Assembly: GCF_030846775.1 (NCBI RefSeq)
Contig: NZ_CP132910.1
Location: 4,839,001-4,903,000, forward strand
Origin: Geothrix sp. 21YS21S-2
Lineage (GTDB): Bacteria; Acidobacteriota; Holophagae; Holophagales; Holophagaceae
Direction of reading: 5' to 3'
DNA: 64,000 nucleotides
In this document: one piece after another, positions 8,411-64,000 of the stretch
Position numbering within the stretch: position 1 is the stretch's first letter
How the letters are laid out: the number at the start of each line of letters is the position of its first letter
Notes under the pieces: generated by a model
Told to the model about the DNA's origin: nothing
Database searches by the model: none
Seen by the model: the letters and a program-made list of their open reading frames with translations, nothing else
Position numbers and translations under genes: made by a program

Positions 8411-8548
8411 CTCGGCGAACCTCGGCCCCTCGGCTGCCTCGGCGATGCATTCTGTTTCAAGACCTTGCGGCGCATTTAAGCGATGCGCCGCAAGGTCTTA
8501 AGAAAGAAATGCATCGCCGAGGCAGCCGAGGGGCCGAGGTTCGCCGAG
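8411..8548. repeat. Nested perfect palindrome (40-bp arms, 17-bp inner hairpin)
   Basis: Outer arms 8411-8450 and 8509-8548 are exact reverse complements over 40 bases. The arms are built from CTCGGCGAACCTCGGC and CCTCGGCTGCCTCGGCGATG units. Inside lies a second perfect inverted repeat, 8459-8475 with 8483-8499, carrying AAGACCTTGCGGCGCAT around a 7-nt loop. The element fills the gap between guaB and rubrerythrin. The same CTCGGCG-type core occurs at 50850-50939, so this is a dispersed intergenic repeat family. It could form a cruciform or a very stable RNA hairpin after the rubrerythrin stop. Confidence 0.95.
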
Positions 8549-13015: not shown

Positions 13016-13073
13016 CACCGGCCGTCCCCGGCCGTCACCGATTATTTCCGGTGACGGCCCTGGACGGCCGGTG
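13016..13073 (+). terminator. 25-bp hairpin between nifJ and the next gene
   Basis: Arms 13016-13040 and 13049-13073 pair over 25 positions with two mismatches, around an AT-rich 8-nt loop (ATTATTTC). There is no T-run, so it is not a classical intrinsic terminator; it may stabilise the nifJ mRNA end or pause polymerase. A TAATCT box (13077-13082) directly after it could start transcription of the downstream gene. Confidence 0.6.
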
Positions 13074-14116: not shown

Positions 14117-14149
14117 AGGAAAAGGGCCGGCATCGCCGGCCCTTTTCCT
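14117..14149. terminator. Bidirectional intrinsic terminator
   Basis: A perfect 15-bp inverted repeat, AGGAAAAGGGCCGGC / GCCGGCCCTTTTCCT around ATC. The GC stem is flanked by A4 and T4 runs, so it can work on both strands. It lies exactly between the convergent dihydroorotate-dehydrogenase-like and nitroreductase genes. Confidence 0.9.
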
Positions 14150-56009: not shown

Positions 56010-56705
56010 TCAGTGCCTGGACTGGACCGTGTCCCTGAACATGTAGAGATAGAGAAGGGCGATCCCCAGACCCGCGACGAGCCACAGGAGGGACCGGCTG
56101 GAAGGCACCGCCTCCAGGACCATGGAGGTGGAATCGCCCTGCTTGAGGGCGGCGGCCTGCAGGAGCGCCGTCTGGCGGCCGTCGGCCCTTCCCAGGCGGA
56201 CGCGGGGTTCCGCTTCCTTCTTGGTGGGCTTGGGCAGGGCCTCCTTGATGGCCTGGAACCGGTAGCCGGCGGGCAGGACCACCTCGAGGCTGAAGGCGGT
56301 GATGGGATCATCGTAGGTATTGACGAAGGCGGCGCGCACGACCCGGCTGGAGCCGGGCATCTTGGCCTTTTCGCCCTCGGCGACGGCTTCGGGCGAGAAC
56401 AGGCCGGTGGCCGTGTAGGTGAAGGAGCAGGTCCAGACGCCAGGTTCCGGCGGCAGGACGACCTTCACGAGCGCACCGCGGGATTCCAGGCCGAGTGCCT
56501 TCGGGCCGCTCGCGAGGAGGAACCCGGAGGCCTTGAGGCCCACGGGGATCTCAACGGTCTCGTTCGCCGCGCCGGCGATCACCAGCGTGGTGGTTGCCCG
56601 GCCCGCGCCGTCCGGGGAGAGTTCCACCCGGGTGGCGTAGGACTGGATCTCGGCCGCTGAAAGGGCGGCGCCCAGGAGGAGGAGGGGAAGCAGGAGCCGG
56701 CTCAT
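56010..56705 (-). CDS. Periplasmic protein with C-terminal membrane anchor
   Basis: 231 residues. A signal peptide (LLLPLLLLGAALSAAEI), a beta-rich periplasmic domain of about 170 residues (ATRVELSPDGAGRATTTLVI, VWTCSFTYTATGLF, ITAFSLEVVLPAGYRF) and a C-terminal membrane segment (LLWLVAGLGIALLYLYMF) with a short cytoplasmic tail. No family recognised. The ATG overlaps the stop codon of the SLC13 gene (ATGA), which indicates translational coupling. It may be a periplasmic partner of that transporter, an inference from the overlap alone. Confidence 0.75.
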   Translation of the reverse strand: MSRLLLPLLLLGAALSAAEIQSYATRVELSPDGAGRATTTLVIAGAANETVEIPVGLKASGFLLASGPKALGLESRGALVKVVLPPEPGVWTCSFTYTATGLFSPEAVAEGEKAKMPGSSRVVRAAFVNTYDDPITAFSLEVVLPAGYRFQAIKEALPKPTKKEAEPRVRLGRADGRQTALLQAAALKQGDSTSMVLEAVPSSRSLLWLVAGLGIALLYLYMFRDTVQSRH

Positions 56706-58267
56706 TTAGGCATCGCCCAGAAGGAAGGCGTGATGCCGAGCCAGTGGAACCAGGTGGCCGCCGAGATGACCAGCAGCACCATGCCCACCGTGCACGTGAT
56801 CATGCCGAACTTGAAGTTGTCCATCACGGTGTACTGGTTCGTGGAGAAGAGGATCACGTTGGGCTTGCCGCTGATGGGCAGGCCCACCACCCAGTCGATG
56901 CAGAGCGCGGCGGGCAGGGCCATGGACACGGGATCCCAGCCCAGGGCCTTGGACATCGTGATGATGATCGGGATGAGGATGATGGTGCGCACCGTCTTGG
57001 AGGTGGTGAGCAGGTGGCTGTACATCATCACGCCGGTGATGAGGGTGAAGGCCGCGCCGAAGGGGATGGACTTCAGGTTCATGCCTCCGAACAGCGTCCT
57101 GACGCCCCATTCCGCCGCCCCGGTGTCCTCCAGGGCGAGGCCGCCGGCATAGGCGCCCGCGGAGAAGATGAGGAGGTGCCAGGGGATGTCCGCCTCGCTC
57201 CACTGGAGCACCCCGTAGCGGGGGAAGAGCACGAGCACCGCGCCGATCAGGGCCGCGAAGGGCGCGCTGATCTCCACGCCGAACCAGCGCATGTGGAATA
57301 TGTCGGTCATCCAGAGGAAGAGCACCACGCCGAAGATGACCATGGCCTTCTTCTCCTGGAAGCTGAACGCGCCCATGGAGCGGTGCTGCTCCTCCACCAG
57401 GGCCAGGCCGCCCTCGACCTTGGGGGTCTGGTCCCCGGCCGCGATGGGGAAGATGAACCTCTGCCCCACGAACCACATGATAAGCATGGTGAGGATGGCG
57501 ATGGGAGCCCCGGCGATCATCCAGTCCATGTAGTAGACCCGGTGGCCGGTCATGCTCTGGATGAAGGCCACCGCCACCAGGTTGGCCGAGGAGCCGGTCA
57601 TGGTGACGGAGGTGAGCACCGAGATGCCCGCCAGGTTGAGCAGAAGCAGGTTCTTGCCGAAGTTGTTGGGGGTCTGCTCGGTGGAGCCGTAGATGGTGCC
57701 CACCACGATGATCAGGGGCAGGGTCATGACGCAGCGCGCCGCCGTGGCCGGGATCAGGGGGGACAGGGCCAGCTGGAGGATGACGAAGGCCAGCAGGGCC
57801 CAGGAGGCCTTCCGGCCGAACTTGACGATGAGCCACAGCGCCATGCGCTTGGCCAGGCGGGTCTTCACCAGCATGGAGCTGAGGATGAAGGCCAGCAGGT
57901 TGAGCCAGATCACTTCCATGCCCAGCACGTCCATGATCGGCTTGGCCGGGGAGGTGCGCGTGACCAGGAGCAGGAACATGAGGATCAGGGACGTGACGTA
58001 GGTGGGGAAGGGCTCGGTCACCCACCACACCAGGGCCAGCGCGAAGCAGGCCGTGCCCGTCTGGGCCGCGCCGCTCAGGCCGGCGCCCGCGGGGAGGTAG
58101 TACACGAGGAGGAAGAGCAGGATGCCCCCCGGGAATCCCAGGTAGCGCATCCATTTCTCGGTGGGGCTCTGGGCCTCTCTCGTCTTGGAGGAGAGGACCA
58201 TCTTCTCCATGTCCAGGAGGGCCTGGAGGGAGTGGGCGGGAGTCGCCGCGGGTGCTTCAGCTGCCAT
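56702..58267 (-). CDS. SLC13/DASS-type anion transporter
   Basis: 521 residues with about 11-12 membrane segments. Two signature loops of the DASS family are visible: TMTGSSANLVAVAF near residue 225 (SNT-type motif) and LPISGKPNVILFSTNQ near residue 465 (second SNT-type motif). Family members are sodium-driven importers of sulfate, di- and tricarboxylates or, in yeast and plants, phosphate. The neighbourhood of phosphate-hydrolysing enzymes favours phosphate, but sulfate or dicarboxylate cannot be excluded from sequence. It starts 50 bp after the CYTH gene, past a GC hairpin; weak ribosome-binding site AGGCAGAG. Confidence 0.9.
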   Translation of the reverse strand: MAAEAPAATPAHSLQALLDMEKMVLSSKTREAQSPTEKWMRYLGFPGGILLFLLVYYLPAGAGLSGAAQTGTACFALALVWWVTEPFPTYVTSLILMFLLLVTRTSPAKPIMDVLGMEVIWLNLLAFILSSMLVKTRLAKRMALWLIVKFGRKASWALLAFVILQLALSPLIPATAARCVMTLPLIIVVGTIYGSTEQTPNNFGKNLLLLNLAGISVLTSVTMTGSSANLVAVAFIQSMTGHRVYYMDWMIAGAPIAILTMLIMWFVGQRFIFPIAAGDQTPKVEGGLALVEEQHRSMGAFSFQEKKAMVIFGVVLFLWMTDIFHMRWFGVEISAPFAALIGAVLVLFPRYGVLQWSEADIPWHLLIFSAGAYAGGLALEDTGAAEWGVRTLFGGMNLKSIPFGAAFTLITGVMMYSHLLTTSKTVRTIILIPIIITMSKALGWDPVSMALPAALCIDWVVGLPISGKPNVILFSTNQYTVMDNFKFGMITCTVGMVLLVISAATWFHWLGITPSFWAMPK

Positions 58268-58317: not shown

Positions 58318-58791
58318 TTACGCCTTGTTCCAGGTATTGTAAGGGTTCTTAAGCAGGTTGGAGTTGAAATAGCGGGGGTCGCTGGAGACTTCGGGGCCCA
58401 CCCAGGCGGGGAGGGTGATGGCCTCGTCCTCGGAGGCCAGCTCGATCTCGGCCACCACCAGGCCCTCGTTGAGGCCGTGGAAGACGTCGATCTCCCAGGT
58501 CTTGCCGAAGTGCACCTCCTTGTGGCGGTGCTTGTCGATCAGGGGCTGCTCGCAGAGGTTGTCCAGCAGCAGGGCGGCGTCCTCGACCGGGATGGAATAC
58601 TCGAATTCCGAGCGGGTTACGCCGGTGGTGATGCCCTTGATGGTGAGCTTGGCGCGGGTGCCTTCGATGCGCACGCGCACCACCCGCTCCTTCTGCGAAT
58701 TGAGGTAGCCCTGCTTGAAGTGGATGCCTTCGCCCTGGGGGACCCACGCGTCGAGCTTCACCTGGTACTTGCGTTCGATTTCCTTGGCCAC
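58318..58791 (-). CDS. CYTH-domain triphosphate tunnel metalloenzyme
   Basis: 157 residues. The GTG at 58791 has a perfect AGGAGG site; an upstream ATG would add 13 residues without homology. The protein starts MAKEIERKYQVK, containing the diagnostic ExExK metal motif (Glu4, Glu6, Lys8). Basic strands VVRVRIEGTRAKLTIKG and the acidic EYSIPVED, WEIDVF and VAEIELASEDE follow in the order of the eight-stranded tunnel, and the C-terminal SSDPRYFNSNLLKNPY is typical of the CYTH subgroup that includes the Nitrosomonas and Clostridium tripolyphosphatases. The likely reaction is hydrolysis of tripolyphosphate or another triphosphate with magnesium or manganese in the cytoplasm. Second gene after the porin. 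Confidence 0.93.
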   Translation of the reverse strand: MAKEIERKYQVKLDAWVPQGEGIHFKQGYLNSQKERVVRVRIEGTRAKLTIKGITTGVTRSEFEYSIPVEDAALLLDNLCEQPLIDKHRHKEVHFGKTWEIDVFHGLNEGLVVAEIELASEDEAITLPAWVGPEVSSDPRYFNSNLLKNPYNTWNKA

Positions 58792-58840
58792 GGGGCCTCC
58801 TGATTCAAAGTGCGGGTTGGAGTGTTTCACGGCGGACAGT

Positions 58841-58890: not shown

Positions 58891-60216
58891 CTAGAAATTG
58901 ACCTGGAGCCGGATGGTCGTGATGGAGAAGTCGTCGTTGACGATGCCGCCGTAGACGCCCTTGGGCTTGGCGTTCTCGTTGTTGTCGACCTTGGTGTAGT
59001 CGGCCATCCAGCGGATGTTCTTGTTGGTGTACCAGGTCAGGCCCAGGGACATGTTCTTGGCCTGGCCGCCCTTGACGGCGTCGATGGCGGTGAGGTCGTC
59101 CTGGTTCATCTTGCTGTAGCGGGCCACCACTTCGAGGGCACCCATCTTGCTGCTGGGGGTGACCTTGCCGAACAGGCCGTCCTGGGCGCTGTAGGAGCGC
59201 CGGCCGCCGAAGATGTAGGACACCTGGCCGTAGTAGGTGGAGAAGGTGTGGTCGACGACGCTGGCGGCGAGGGCGGCGGCGGTGGTGCCGAAGGCGTCCC
59301 GGCGCTTGACCTTGGTCTGCTGGTACTCGCTCTGCCAGGAGAAGGCGTTCCACACGCCCGCGAACTCGGCGCCGGTCTGGGTGTAGTTCTTGACGTTGGC
59401 GACCTTGGCGTTCAGGAACTTGGCCTTGCTGATCTTGCCGGCCTCGGGCCTGCCGGAGAAGTCGATGGCATAGGCCTCGCCCGCCACGGGCACCAGGGTG
59501 GTGGTGCTGTAGTCGGCGATGGGGGTGCGGGTGTTCATGGCCACGCCGAAGTGGATGGCCTTGGACTCGTTGACGAGGATGGGGGCCACGCTGACCCGGC
59601 CGGCATAGCCCCAGCCGTGGTCGGAGCCGTTGGTGTCGGCGGTGTTGGTGTCGTCGATGGCCTGGCCGAAGAAGTTGGCCTTGGCCTGCCAGCGCTCGCC
59701 CCACTTGGCGACGGCGACGCCCACGTGCCGGTCGGGGGTCCAGATGTCGCTGTAGGAGCGCTCGGTGAACCAGATGGCGTTGGAGGAGGAGAGGGTGTCG
59801 AAGCCGAAGGGCGCCTTGAACTGGCCCACCTGGATCAGGGTGTCCTTGAAGCCCTGGTAGCCGACCCACATGTCCTTGACGGAGGCACCGCCTTCGGCGA
59901 AATCGTAGTCGCCTTCGGCGACCCAGTCCTTGCCGAAGCCGGCCTTGAAGCTGATGCGGCCGCGGCGCAGCTGGGTGCCGTTGGCCAGGCGGTTCTTGTT
60001 GCCGTCGAAGAAGACCGAGTCCAGGTGGAAGCGGCCGCCGAACTTGACGTAGAAGCCGCCGTCCTTGGACTCGTCGGACTTCTTGGCCTCGAGTTTGGTG
60101 AGCTTCTCGACCTTCTTCTCGAGATCGGCGATGCGCTTGTCGGCGTCGGTGGGAGCCTGGGCGGCGAGGGGGCCCGCCAGGATGGCGAGGGCCAAGGGCG
60201 TGACGAAGAACTTCAT
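58891..60216 (-). CDS. OprP/OprO-type (phosphate-selective) porin
   Basis: 441 residues. Signal peptide (FFVTPLALAILAGPLAAQA), a short coiled coil (KRIADLEKKVEKLTKLEAKK) as in trimeric porins, and a beta-barrel rich in aromatic strand ends. The segment GGRFHLDSVFFDGN, RRGRISFKAGFGKDWVAEGDYDF, MWVGYQGFKDTLIQVGQFKAPFG and the terminal phenylalanine (RLQVNF) match the phosphate-selective porin O/P family, whose prototypes pass orthophosphate (OprP) and polyphosphate (OprO). The start at 60216 follows GGAGG. A sigma-54-type promoter lies about 90 bp upstream. Anion selectivity is inferred from the family. Confidence 0.92.
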   Translation of the reverse strand: MKFFVTPLALAILAGPLAAQAPTDADKRIADLEKKVEKLTKLEAKKSDESKDGGFYVKFGGRFHLDSVFFDGNKNRLANGTQLRRGRISFKAGFGKDWVAEGDYDFAEGGASVKDMWVGYQGFKDTLIQVGQFKAPFGFDTLSSSNAIWFTERSYSDIWTPDRHVGVAVAKWGERWQAKANFFGQAIDDTNTADTNGSDHGWGYAGRVSVAPILVNESKAIHFGVAMNTRTPIADYSTTTLVPVAGEAYAIDFSGRPEAGKISKAKFLNAKVANVKNYTQTGAEFAGVWNAFSWQSEYQQTKVKRRDAFGTTAAALAASVVDHTFSTYYGQVSYIFGGRRSYSAQDGLFGKVTPSSKMGALEVVARYSKMNQDDLTAIDAVKGGQAKNMSLGLTWYTNKNIRWMADYTKVDNNENAKPKGVYGGIVNDDFSITTIRLQVNF

Positions 60217-60304
60217 GTGAACCTCCAGCGGTAGGTCATGGGGGGCGCGCGGGCGCGCCGGCTTTGTTGAAGACGAGGGTTTCCCAGAGGGAATGGACCT
60301 GAAT

Positions 60305-60320
60305 TGGAAGATGCGTGCCA
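60305..60320 (-). promoter_or_regulatory. Sigma-54-type promoter of the porin gene
   Basis: On the minus strand: perfect -24 TGGCAC, five bases, then TTCCA (-12 consensus TTGCW, one mismatch in the GC). It is the only -24-type box in the 225-bp spacer between adk and the porin, whose upstream half is AT-rich. Confidence 0.55.
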
Positions 60321-60441
60321 AGTTTGAAATTGATGATAAGTCAAATATTTACAGGCATTGAGTATTGAGGAGGGGGGATCCGTCCGGGACGTCCGTGCGG
60401 AAATCCGCGCAGAACCCCTGCGGGAATGCGCACGGGGCGGC

Positions 60442-61095
60442 TCAGCCCACCTGCGCGGTCAGGGCGCCGACGATGGTCTTCACGATGGCGGCCGTGTCCA
60501 GCTCCCGCACCGTGACCAGCAGGCCGGTGCGGTCGTAATGGCCCACGAGGGGGTTGGTCTGCTGCCGGTAGACCTCCAGGCGGCGGGTGATGGCCTCGGG
60601 GGTCTCGTCCTCGCGCTGGATGACCTTGCATCCGCACGCGCGGCAGGTGCCGTCCGGGGCGGGCGGGTTCGATTTCAGGTTGTAGATCGCGTTGCAGTCC
60701 GGGTTGGAGCAGGTGCGGCGGGTGCAGAGGCGATCCAGGATCACCTCCTCGGGGACCACCAGGTTCACCACCATGTGCAGGGGCAGGTCCAGGCCCTTGA
60801 GGAGCAGGCCCAGCGACACGGCCTGGGGGATGGTGCGGGGGAAGCCGTCCATGATGAAGCCCTCTCCGGGCCGTTCCTGGAAGCGCTGCTCGACCATGCC
60901 CATGATGAGGCGGTCGGGGACGAGGTCGCCCCGCTGCATGTAGCCCTGGGCCTGAAGGCCGAGGGGGGTTCCGGCCTTCACGGCCGCCCTGAGGAGATCT
61001 CCGGTCGATATCTGCACGGAGCCGTCGTAGGCCGTGAGCTGCTTGGCCACGGTGCCCTTGCCGGCGCCGGGCGCACCCAGCAATACGATGCGCAT
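60442..61095 (-). CDS. adk: Adenylate kinase (zinc-type)
   Basis: 217 residues; catalyses ATP + AMP to 2 ADP. P-loop GAPGAGKGTVAK at the N terminus, the NMP-binding STGDLLRAAVKAGTPLG and the DGFPRTIPQA motif. The LID contains a Cys4 zinc site (RTCSNPDCNAIYNL ... GTCRACGCKV). Adenylate kinase is usually found with secY and ribosomal genes; here it sits directly after an exported pyrophosphatase. With strong AAGGAGG. An intrinsic terminator lies between the two, so adk may have read-through or separate expression. Whether it is the only adk of the cell cannot be told. Confidence 0.96.
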   Translation of the reverse strand: MRIVLLGAPGAGKGTVAKQLTAYDGSVQISTGDLLRAAVKAGTPLGLQAQGYMQRGDLVPDRLIMGMVEQRFQERPGEGFIMDGFPRTIPQAVSLGLLLKGLDLPLHMVVNLVVPEEVILDRLCTRRTCSNPDCNAIYNLKSNPPAPDGTCRACGCKVIQREDETPEAITRRLEVYRQQTNPLVGHYDRTGLLVTVRELDTAAIVKTIVGALTAQVG

Positions 61096-61153: not shown

Positions 61154-61930
61154 TCATTCGCCCAGGTTCTTCGCGCCGGGCCAGCGGTACAGGCTGGGAT
61201 TGCCGTCCTTGTCCAGGGGGCGCCGGTCGGCGTCCGTGGTCACGGAGTTCTCGTAGTCCAGGATTGCGTCGCCCAGGAAGCGGATCGCCTCGGCCCGCTC
61301 CTTGAAGCCCGTGGAGGCCATCATCAGCTTGCCTTCCTTGTCCCTGCCCTTGTAGGACGTGAACCAGGTCTGGAGGATGGTGGTCACGCCGGGGAACTTG
61401 GCGTCCAGGTCGGCGATGCTCTTGCAGTTCCAGAAGGGCGAACCCTCCATGGCCACCACCAGCTTGTTGTCCACCTCGCCGGTGTCGGTGAGGACCAGGA
61501 TGCCCAGGGTGCGGGCCTTGACCACGGAGCCGGTGGGGACCGACTGGCCCAGGATCAGCACGTCGATGGGATCGCCGTCGCCGCCCTTGCTCTTGAGCAG
61601 GACGGAGCGGGGCACCGCCCCGTAGTTGCAGGGGTAGCCCAGGTACTGCACGTACCGGGGGGCCCCGTTCTTCTGTTCGATGGCGATGAGGCCGGTCTTG
61701 ATGTCGGTCTCGAATTTGGCCGTGGTGCCGGCGGGGATCTCGACGACGCAGTTGATGGTGCCGTCGACGTTGATGGGGTCGTAGCCGGTGAGGAAGTTCT
61801 TCCGGCCCTTGAGGACGTGGGCCTGGGCCGTGACGTCGGCGGGCTGCAGCGCCGGCAGGGGCGTGGCCGAGGCCGCCAGGCAGAGCAGGATCCCGGGGAG
61901 GAGGATGCGGGGGGAGAAAAGGGTCTTCAT
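61154..61930 (-). CDS. Exported family I inorganic pyrophosphatase
   Basis: 258 residues. Soluble pyrophosphatases are normally about 175-180 residues and cytoplasmic; this one begins with a signal peptide (FSPRILLPGILLCLAASATPL), so it should act in the periplasm. The family I core is complete: KFETDIKTGLIAIEQ (first substrate strand), YLGYPCNYGAVP, the signature DGDPIDVLILG with three metal-binding aspartates, ARTLGILVLTDTGEVDNKLV and the C-terminal WF/K segment. The ATG at 61930 has AGGAG ten bases upstream. It lies in a row with two other exported proteins, 42 bp after the preceding gene, and is followed by a terminator. Confidence 0.93.
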   Translation of the reverse strand: MKTLFSPRILLPGILLCLAASATPLPALQPADVTAQAHVLKGRKNFLTGYDPINVDGTINCVVEIPAGTTAKFETDIKTGLIAIEQKNGAPRYVQYLGYPCNYGAVPRSVLLKSKGGDGDPIDVLILGQSVPTGSVVKARTLGILVLTDTGEVDNKLVVAMEGSPFWNCKSIADLDAKFPGVTTILQTWFTSYKGRDKEGKLMMASTGFKERAEAIRFLGDAILDYENSVTTDADRRPLDKDGNPSLYRWPGAKNLGE

Positions 61931-61972
61931 GTGTTCCAAGCTCCTATTCGATGGGCCAATGGGGCGCGAGAC

Positions 61973-62749
61973 TTATGACGGATCGTCGTTGTGGGCGGCC
62001 TTGGCCTTCTTGGCCTTGGTCTTGGGCTTCTCGGCCTCGGGGGCGGACGCCGCGGCGACGGCCAGGATGATGTGGGGGCGGCTCTTCTTGGCGGGGTCGT
62101 CATAGGCCAGCTTGGGGCTCTTCATGAGCTCCTCGCGGACGGTTTCGGGGGCGTATTCGAGCAGGTAGTAGGTGGGGCCCCAGGGGGTCTTGCCGGGGTC
62201 CACGACTTCCTGGATCAGCCGGGCCGCGTTGGCCATCTGCTCCGGGGTGCGGTCCGGGTTGTGCTTGGAGTAGCGGCCGGACTTGTTGTTGATGGTGAAG
62301 CTCTTGGTGGCCTTGTCGTAGTTGATCTCGCCGCTGATGCGGCTGGGGCCGCCCGCGATGGCGGAGACGTGGCCGTAGTTCTCGGTGGTGCCGGGCTTGC
62401 GCTTGGACTGGTCCTCGGGGCGGAAGAAGCCCTTGGCGTAGGTGCGGCCCAGGGGATGGGCGGCTTCCTGGATGATGCCCACGCGGCCTTCGGCGTCGAT
62501 CACCCAGTTGTACGGGGCGTTCTTGGCGTCCAGGATGGCGGGGTAGTCCTTGGTGGCCACCTGGAGGTAGGGGTTTATGAGCACCTTGCCGTTCTTGTCG
62601 GCCTCGTAGTGCTTGATGTAGGCGGGCTGGGACAGGTAGCCGTACAGCGCGTCGAGCTTGTCGGGCCCGGCCTGGGCGAAGCCGGGAAGGGCGAGGCAGG
62701 CCGCGAGGGCGCCCAGCGTGAAACTGCGGGAGAGGTTTCGCATCGTCAT
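61973..62749 (-). CDS. Exported protein of unknown function, Lys/Ala-rich tail
   Basis: 258 residues, start at 62749 with GGAG upstream (the second ATG six bases later is possible). A signal peptide (FTLGALAACLALPGFAQAGPD) is followed by a mature domain of about 190 residues with aromatic and basic motifs (YGYLSQPAYIKHYEADKNGKVLINPYLQVATKDY in pieces, RVGIIQEAAHPLGRTYAKGFFRP, GHVSAIAGGPSRISGEINYD, KSGRYSKHNPDRTPEQ) and a lysine/alanine tail. I know no family. The many basic residues could bind polyanions. It lies between the exported CYTH-like protein (30-bp gap) and the pyrophosphatase (42-bp gap), so probably co-transcribed with both. Confidence 0.75.
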   Translation of the reverse strand: MTMRNLSRSFTLGALAACLALPGFAQAGPDKLDALYGYLSQPAYIKHYEADKNGKVLINPYLQVATKDYPAILDAKNAPYNWVIDAEGRVGIIQEAAHPLGRTYAKGFFRPEDQSKRKPGTTENYGHVSAIAGGPSRISGEINYDKATKSFTINNKSGRYSKHNPDRTPEQMANAARLIQEVVDPGKTPWGPTYYLLEYAPETVREELMKSPKLAYDDPAKKSRPHIILAVAAASAPEAEKPKTKAKKAKAAHNDDPS

Positions 62750-62778: not shown

Positions 62779-63738
62779 TCAGTGGGTGAGGGGCCTGTTC
62801 ATGAGCTTGCGCACCTTGGAACCGCCCCATTTCTCGGCCTGGGGCATGGCCAGGTCGCCCAGCTCGCCGAGGATGACCTTCTGGTAGAACTGCTCGCTGG
62901 CCTCGTGGAGCGCGGGGCTGTCGTAGTAGTCGATGTCGCCGTAGCCGAGGGAGACGTCGTAGAGGTAGGGGGCCTCGCCGGGCTTCGTGGACCACCCCTC
63001 GAAGGAGAAGCCGCAGTCGTCGGTGCCGGCCAGTTCCACCGAGCCCGGCTTCACGCGCACGGAGTAGGCCCGGTTGCCCACGAGTTTCGTGTCCGCCGGG
63101 ATGCCGAGGGTGGCCAGTTCGGGCATGTACTTGGCGAAATCGCCAAGGGTGAGCTTGCCCAGGCTGTCCAGGGTGACGCTGAAGGAGGCGCCCTTCTCGA
63201 CGTAGCCGTCCAGCATTCCGCCGGCGCCGGGGCCGGCGTTCTCCTCGGCCTCGACCTTCACCTTGTCCACGCCCACGACCTTCAGGGGCGTCGCCAGGGC
63301 GAGGTTGGCATCGGGATTGACGGCCTTGATGGTGAGACCCACCTGGAATTCCGCGACGCCCTTCTTGAACTTCTGGGTGATGCGCACCAGGTAGCCCTTC
63401 TTCCAGAGGTCCTGGCCGGGCGTGTCGAAGTACTCCTTGTAGGCGTTCTCGATCTTGAGGGGATTGTCGCCCTTCTCGGTGACCTTGAAGCCGTGCTTGG
63501 CGCCTGCGGCCTTGACCCGGTTCCAGACCGTCGCGAAGACTTCGGCAGGGGAGCCCTTGAGCTTGGCGGGGTCGAGGAGGAACTTCACCTCCCGCCCGTT
63601 CACGTTTTCCAGCCTGGGTGCGGGATACTTCTCGATGGTGCGCAGATGGAGAGCCTTGGCCTGTCCGGGTGCGGCCGCCCAGCCTCCGGTGGCCACGGTG
63701 CCCGCGACCAGCAGAACTGCCACGATGTTCCTGATCAT
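62779..63738 (-). CDS. Exported CYTH-like protein
   Basis: 319 residues. A signal peptide (NIVAVLLVAGTVATGGWAAAP) predicts export. The mature protein shows the CYTH order: GREVKFLLD (an ExK remnant of ExExK), then EYFDTPGQDLWKKGYLVRIT, which is the Y-F-D-T-P ... L-R-x-R segment of CYTH enzymes, FQVGLTIKAV (the L-T-x-K strand), a middle insert, and NRAYSVRVKPGSVELA with PYLYDVSLGYGDIDYYDS near the end. CYTH proteins are normally cytoplasmic, so a secreted one is unusual. It would be expected to bind or cleave triphosphates or polyphosphate in the periplasm. First gene after a strong sigma-54 promoter; GGAGAG ribosome-binding site. Confidence 0.75.
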   Translation of the reverse strand: MIRNIVAVLLVAGTVATGGWAAAPGQAKALHLRTIEKYPAPRLENVNGREVKFLLDPAKLKGSPAEVFATVWNRVKAAGAKHGFKVTEKGDNPLKIENAYKEYFDTPGQDLWKKGYLVRITQKFKKGVAEFQVGLTIKAVNPDANLALATPLKVVGVDKVKVEAEENAGPGAGGMLDGYVEKGASFSVTLDSLGKLTLGDFAKYMPELATLGIPADTKLVGNRAYSVRVKPGSVELAGTDDCGFSFEGWSTKPGEAPYLYDVSLGYGDIDYYDSPALHEASEQFYQKVILGELGDLAMPQAEKWGGSKVRKLMNRPLTH

Positions 63739-63787: not shown

Positions 63788-63803
63788 AGCAAACCCCGCG
63801 CCA
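63788..63803 (-). promoter_or_regulatory. Sigma-54-type promoter of the exported CYTH-like operon
   Basis: TGGCGC-GGGGT-TTGCT on the minus strand: GG and GC are exactly ten bases apart and 14 of the consensus positions fit. The transcript would begin about 50 bp downstream of the inverted repeat and 40 bp before the start codon at 63738. Confidence 0.75.
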
Positions 63804-63807
63804 GTTT

Positions 63808-63852
63808 CCGCGGTGTGATTATTTGTTGATTCTGGATGAGATCACACCGCGG
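63808..63852. promoter_or_regulatory. Perfect 12-bp inverted repeat beside the sigma-54 promoter
   Basis: CCGCGGTGTGAT at 63808-63819 is mirrored exactly by ATCACACCGCGG at 63841-63852, with a 21-bp AT-rich spacer, about two helical turns. The promoter-proximal arm ends 4 bp from the -24 box. Likely binding sites for the regulator encoded next door. Confidence 0.7.
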
Positions 63853-63913
63853 CTCCACCCCGCAGGAGGGCGCCGGTGTGCGAAATTCCGCAAGGCGGGG
63901 TGCGAAGACCCGC

Positions 63914-64000
63914 TCAGTAGCGGTTGAGGCTGAGACCCAGGATCTTCAGGCGGTCGTAGAGGGTGCGCCTGGCCAGCCCGAGGATCTGGGCGGCTTCGGC
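63914..64000 (-). CDS. Fis-type DNA-binding domain of a sigma-54-dependent regulator (C-terminal end)
   Basis: Only the last 28 residues are inside the window. They read AEAAQILGLARRTLYDRLK and then ILGLSLNRY, the helix-turn-helix of Fis-type activators of the NtrC family (the usual A-A-x-x-L-G-I-x-R-x-T-L-Y-x-K pattern). The stop codon lies 175 bp upstream of the exported CYTH-like gene and faces the same direction. A matching sigma-54 promoter and a symmetric site are in that gap, which makes this the probable activator of the locus. The receiver or sensor and the AAA+ domain lie outside. Confidence 0.8.
   Translation of the reverse strand, partial: AEAAQILGLARRTLYDRLKILGLSLNRY

Follow-up and report, generated by a model that had tools for sequence, protein, structure and literature searches.

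A conserved sigma-54 enhancer-promoter module beside a two-component system points to a regulon of exported phosphohydrolase genes in Holophagaceae

A standard NtrC/sigma-54 enhancer very probably drives a pyrophosphate/polyphosphate operon of Geothrix sp. 21YS21S-2 together with two unlinked genes coding for exported phosphohydrolases, and a perfect 12-bp inverted repeat found beside the operon promoter is, in our judgement equally firmly, not the conserved activator site of this system. The operon lies in the window, which is the whole 64,000-nucleotide stretch of DNA that we analysed. On the minus strand, the genes for a histidine kinase and a response regulator are followed by an intergenic region and by an exported gene starting at 63738. 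The features of this region and of the two unlinked loci are given in Table 1.

Table 1. Coordinates of the regulatory elements and genes. Positions are those of the window unless a locus or the genome is named.
Feature	Position	Strand	Remarks
PAS-PAS histidine kinase	L009:10256-11833		Precedes the regulator gene
NtrC-type response regulator gene, 3' end	63914-64000	minus	449 aa; complete at L009:8914-10263
Distal enhancer palindrome (predicted) AGCGGGTCTTCGCA	63901-63914	minus	111 bp before the sigma-54 site
Proximal enhancer palindrome (predicted) TGCGGAATTTCGCA	63879-63892	minus	89 bp start to start before the sigma-54 site
12-bp inverted repeat, distal arm ATCACACCGCGG	63841-63852	minus	Perfect arm
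AT-rich IHF-like element AATCAACAAATAA	63819-63831	minus	8/9 specified IHF consensus positions; between the repeat arms
12-bp inverted repeat, promoter-proximal arm CCGCGGTGTGAT	63808-63819	minus	Perfect arm
Sigma-54 -24/-12 promoter (predicted) TGGCGCGGGGTTTGCT	63803-63788	minus	11/12 specified consensus positions; GG-N10-GC spacing
First target gene, exported 319-aa protein, predicted CYTH/triphosphate-tunnel fold	62779-63738	minus	
Exported 258-aa protein	61973-62749	minus	
Exported family I inorganic pyrophosphatase	61154-61939	minus	PF00719, E 4e-29
Adenylate kinase	60442-61095	minus	At this locus only in the window's genus
OprO/OprP-type phosphate-selective porin	58891-60321	minus	
CYTH-domain protein without evident signal sequence	58318-58830	minus	
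DASS-type (PF00939) anion symporter	56702-58267	minus	
Exported DHH/DHHA2 (family II type) pyrophosphatase	L058:7729-8787; genome 4224728-4225786	minus	Own enhancer pair and sigma-54 site
Exported metallophosphoesterase, aBig_2 and calcineurin-like phosphoesterase	L059:9364-10896; genome 226363-227895	plus	Same module

The initial annotation had proposed a near-consensus sigma-54 promoter with exact spacing upstream of the exported gene, and scoring against the consensus (a GG-N10-GC core with TGGCACG-N4-TTGCW) confirmed it. We observed a sigma-54 element upstream of the exported CYTH-like gene at 12 loci, including that of the window, and the element is retained at most of the orthologous loci. 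Judged by its conservation across genomes, the predicted promoter is real and conserved.

Further upstream lies a conserved unit of tandem 14-bp palindromes (TGCGR-N4-YCGCA) that are 21-22 bp apart throughout, the distal one usually beginning with AGCG. This pair was found at 26 promoters from 16 genomes, although the independent cases are fewer than 26 since several of these genomes are near-identical. At 21 of the 26 promoters, the proximal palindrome starts 88-90 bp before TGGC. The remaining five show distances of 78, 101, 101, 76 and 67 bp; the promoter at 67 bp has an additional site at 88 bp, and the one at 76 bp has an imperfect -12 element. Spacing shifts of 11-12 and 22 bp correspond approximately to whole helical turns; the distances of 78, 101 and 101 bp are about one turn off. 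The background rate of such palindrome sites is 0.37 per 180 bp.

Relative to the predicted start, the two palindromes of the window are centred at approximately 108 and 130 bp upstream; the last base of the regulator's stop codon (63916-63914) falls within the distal one. The palindromes of the orthologues likewise lie just past the regulator's stop codon, and where an extra gene separates regulator and target (L028) they stay with the promoter. Such enhancer sites are described in a review as lying 100-150 bp upstream, with looping that is often aided by IHF (PMC7057263). The initial annotation had placed an activator site unusually close to the promoter, a view that our results do not support, as the conserved pair sits at the usual enhancer distance. 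Four other loci (L037, L038, L039 and L040) have no module directly ahead of the exported CYTH-like gene. In these, we observed a conserved sigma-54-like site (TGGCATGTT.. TGCA) in the stretch that separates this gene from the exported gene after it; the site lies 100-101 bp past a CGCAC/GTGCG dyad and may be a further promoter of this regulon.

The regulator gene that ends just upstream had been described as NtrC-family-like, and its product proved to contain the full set of receiver (PF00072), sigma-54 AAA+ (PF00158) and Fis HTH (PF02954) domains, and GAFTGA was read in its translation. Orthologues of the exported gene occur in 15 further genomes of the family, nearly all of which have the histidine kinase-regulator pair upstream of the orthologue. 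A further scan of genome contigs revealed only relatives of the kind already found. To relate the regulator to the palindromes, 77 family genomes were scanned for a combined pattern consisting of a palindrome, a gap of 60-90 and a sigma-54 core. The pattern was present in 15 of the 17 genomes with an orthologous regulator versus none of the 60 genomes without it (Fisher p 4e-14, a value that is only a guide because the genomes share ancestry), and a reversed control pattern had no match in the 77 genomes. Being strict, the pattern failed to detect the promoter of the window itself (TTTCGC) and that of G066, and the window genome and G068 were counted via their other sites. In G069, a genome that is 81% complete and has the regulator, the 60 bp left on the contig contain no palindromes, and the target gene is likewise absent from them. 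This co-occurrence supports the binding of the palindromes by this regulator, short of proof. Upstream of the histidine kinase region and outside the window, overlapping ORFs at L009:16082-16908 (minus strand) resembled, on visual inspection, a frameshifted IS630-like transposase.

The operon downstream of the promoter codes for several proteins linked to phosphate compounds (Table 1). The N-terminus of its family I pyrophosphatase reads as hydrophobic and signal-like. In another genus of the family, the porin gene is preceded by a separate enhancer/sigma-54 module of its own, with a distance of exactly 89 bp. The 258-aa protein is without a Pfam match, and showed a weak similarity to XopV/AopV over 70 residues (E 1e-8, 35 bits versus a cutoff of 220). 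Furthermore, the module occurs twice more in the window genome, at unlinked positions and both times at 88 bp. One of these copies precedes the gene for the DHH/DHHA2 pyrophosphatase, an enzyme of another type than the family I pyrophosphatase of the operon. The other precedes the metallophosphoesterase gene, which is followed by a gene for a hybrid histidine kinase. The arrangement is retained at the G066 orthologue of the pyrophosphatase gene and at the matching module of G068. That the targets are repeatedly exported phosphohydrolases suggests that the regulon serves to exploit pyrophosphate/polyphosphate or related compounds from outside the cell.

The first target protein was found in this family only among 396 genomes of the phylum. 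Its AlphaFold2 model (pLDDT 86) gave 32 Foldseek matches at E <=0.001, all of which are CYTH/TTM proteins, and a second aligner returned Z values of approximately 12. The earlier label "CYTH-like" is thus right as far as the predicted model goes, and the protein is predicted to have a CYTH/triphosphate-tunnel fold. A PDB sequence search using the alignment of the exported protein returned nothing significant. This predicted fold is shared with triphosphate tunnel metalloenzymes such as E. coli YgiF and Arabidopsis TTM3. Unlike these, the target protein is exported, has no Pfam match and shares approximately 11-18% identity with the top structures. Its ExExK motif is also altered (G48-x-E50-x-K52), as a nearly invariant Gly48 stands in place of the first Glu while E50 and K52 are invariant, which makes catalysis uncertain.

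We propose that the palindromes at 63914-63901 and 63892-63879, which are two helical turns apart, most likely hold dimers of the adjacent NtrC-type regulator, with both dyads facing the same side of the helix. The DNA between the palindromes and the promoter would loop over the AT-rich, IHF-like stretch. This element is kept as AATCAATAGATAG in G067 and G068, and the pooled IHF score exceeds that of all 500 shuffles; on reading the sequence, a clear AT-rich/IHF-like element was absent from the two unlinked promoters of the window genome. Presumably in response to an inducer, the regulator would turn on the operon for extracytoplasmic pyrophosphate/polyphosphate handling and would also activate the two unlinked genes for exported phosphohydrolases. 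The 12-bp repeat lies in the loop region with its arms flanking the AT-rich stretch and is probably dispensable for activation. As this is the textbook anatomy of an NtrC-type enhancer, activation from a close site without looping is not needed.

The proposed arrangement resembles that of NtrC/NifA-type sigma-54 promoters such as glnAp2 and nifH, at which dyads also lie 100-150 bp upstream (PMC7057263). An AT-rich/IHF-like element between enhancer and promoter and an activator of the receiver-AAA+-Fis type are further points in common. Unlike in these systems, the palindrome here is TGCGG-N5-CGCA, the spacing is nearly fixed at 89 bp and the targets are phosphohydrolase genes instead of nitrogen genes. 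The Pho regulon (PhoB/PhoR) includes phosphate-selective porins (OprO/OprP) and exported phosphohydrolases. The gene kinds are thus alike, namely a phosphate-selective porin and exported phosphohydrolases, but the Pho regulon uses a PhoB-type regulator with sigma-70, whereas here a predicted sigma-54 promoter is paired with an NtrC-type regulator.

We found no paper on this regulon, nor on sigma-54 in Holophagaceae, in the open-access literature. On balance, we lean towards viewing the system as a two-component sigma-54 regulon that has not been described before, is limited within our sample to a single family of acidobacteria and is dedicated to extracytoplasmic pyrophosphate/polyphosphate breakdown. 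It would combine an exported triphosphate-tunnel protein, two unrelated exported pyrophosphatases and a metallophosphoesterase with a near-fixed helical phasing of enhancer and promoter. The use of external polyphosphate/pyrophosphate by bacteria is poorly known, and this regulon offers a sensor with its regulator, a DNA code by which the targets can be located and a few exported enzymes, including a candidate exported triphosphate-tunnel protein. With its near-fixed enhancer spacing, it also lends itself, as a clean natural data set, to the study of helical phasing at sigma-54 promoters.

The perfect 12-bp inverted repeat lies between the regulator gene and the exported gene, 4 bp upstream of the sigma-54 promoter, and has a 21-nt spacer, as originally described. 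When this intergenic region was subjected to 20000 mononucleotide shuffles, a perfect repeat of such size appeared in 5 of them. The 64-kb window contains four such repeats (arms of at least 12, spacer of 3-45) versus 0.48 expected from a Markov simulation, so that finding one somewhere in the window is unremarkable. The repeat stands out locally, though not against the genome as a whole, and was chosen after the fact.

When spacers of 15-30 bp were allowed, the repeat was absent from the other 76 of the 77 family genomes. It is missing at the orthologous promoters of G067 and G068, where the exported protein is 87% identical, and an exact-match search found no second copy of its half-site in the 5.25-Mb genome. 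Furthermore, its arms do not match the conserved enhancer palindrome. The initial annotation had read the repeat as a site for the NtrC-type activator, to be expected upstream of orthologues as well; we rejected it as the regulator's site because it is unconserved and its half-site does not recur. Other identities were discarded as well: an intrinsic terminator (the T-run is absent and none was called on that strand), a multicopy element (it occurs at one genomic place only) and a CRP-like TGTGA-N6-TCACA site, since the arms are 21 bp apart.

It is quite improbable that the repeat is instead a species-specific operator, at which a repressor or a second activator bound to both arms would block or tune the sigma-54 RNA polymerase. 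The local rarity of perfect 12-bp arms in so short an intergenic region would fit such a site, as would their position, since they flank the conserved AT-rich element and one of them abuts the -24 element. However, the lack of any further exact half-site in the genome, the absence of the repeat in all relatives and the difference between its arms and the conserved palindrome argue against this explanation.

We consider it somewhat less improbable, while still unlikely, that the repeat acts at the RNA level, forming a 12-bp hairpin at the 3' terminus of the mRNA for histidine kinase and regulator, where it would end or stabilise the transcript and prevent run-on into the target operon. The repeat is located just downstream of the regulator's stop codon, and folding on the regulator's strand is strong (MFE of the region -47.2 kcal/mol, z -2.6). 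On the other hand, no T-run follows it, the loop would be 21 nt long, terminator calling returned nothing on that strand and the repeat is missing from relatives in which the gene order is the same.

Among these roles, neutrality is most likely, judging from the comparison with relatives. The repeat probably has no function and arose either by chance or by a single template switch that copied the distal arm over the proximal arm. The distal arm shares 9/12 and 8/12 bases with the two closest relatives, while the proximal arm shares far fewer (6/12 and 3/12), as would be expected if it had been rewritten. In an alignment of the three closest sequences, the relatives' own arm positions are not complementary to each other (5/12 and 4/12). 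The number of such repeats in the window also fits a neutral origin. However, this comparison supports the polarity of the rewriting weakly because no more than two relatives are sufficiently close. Most likely, the palindrome is of recent origin and specific to this lineage, and the simplest reading of the two relatives compared is that its proximal arm was rewritten recently, perhaps via a template switch. The case cautions against taking every perfect palindrome beside a promoter for the site that controls it. The three other repeats of this class in the window, likewise perfect and with arms of 12 bp or more, were observed at positions 8459-8499, 13016-13073 and 14117-14149.
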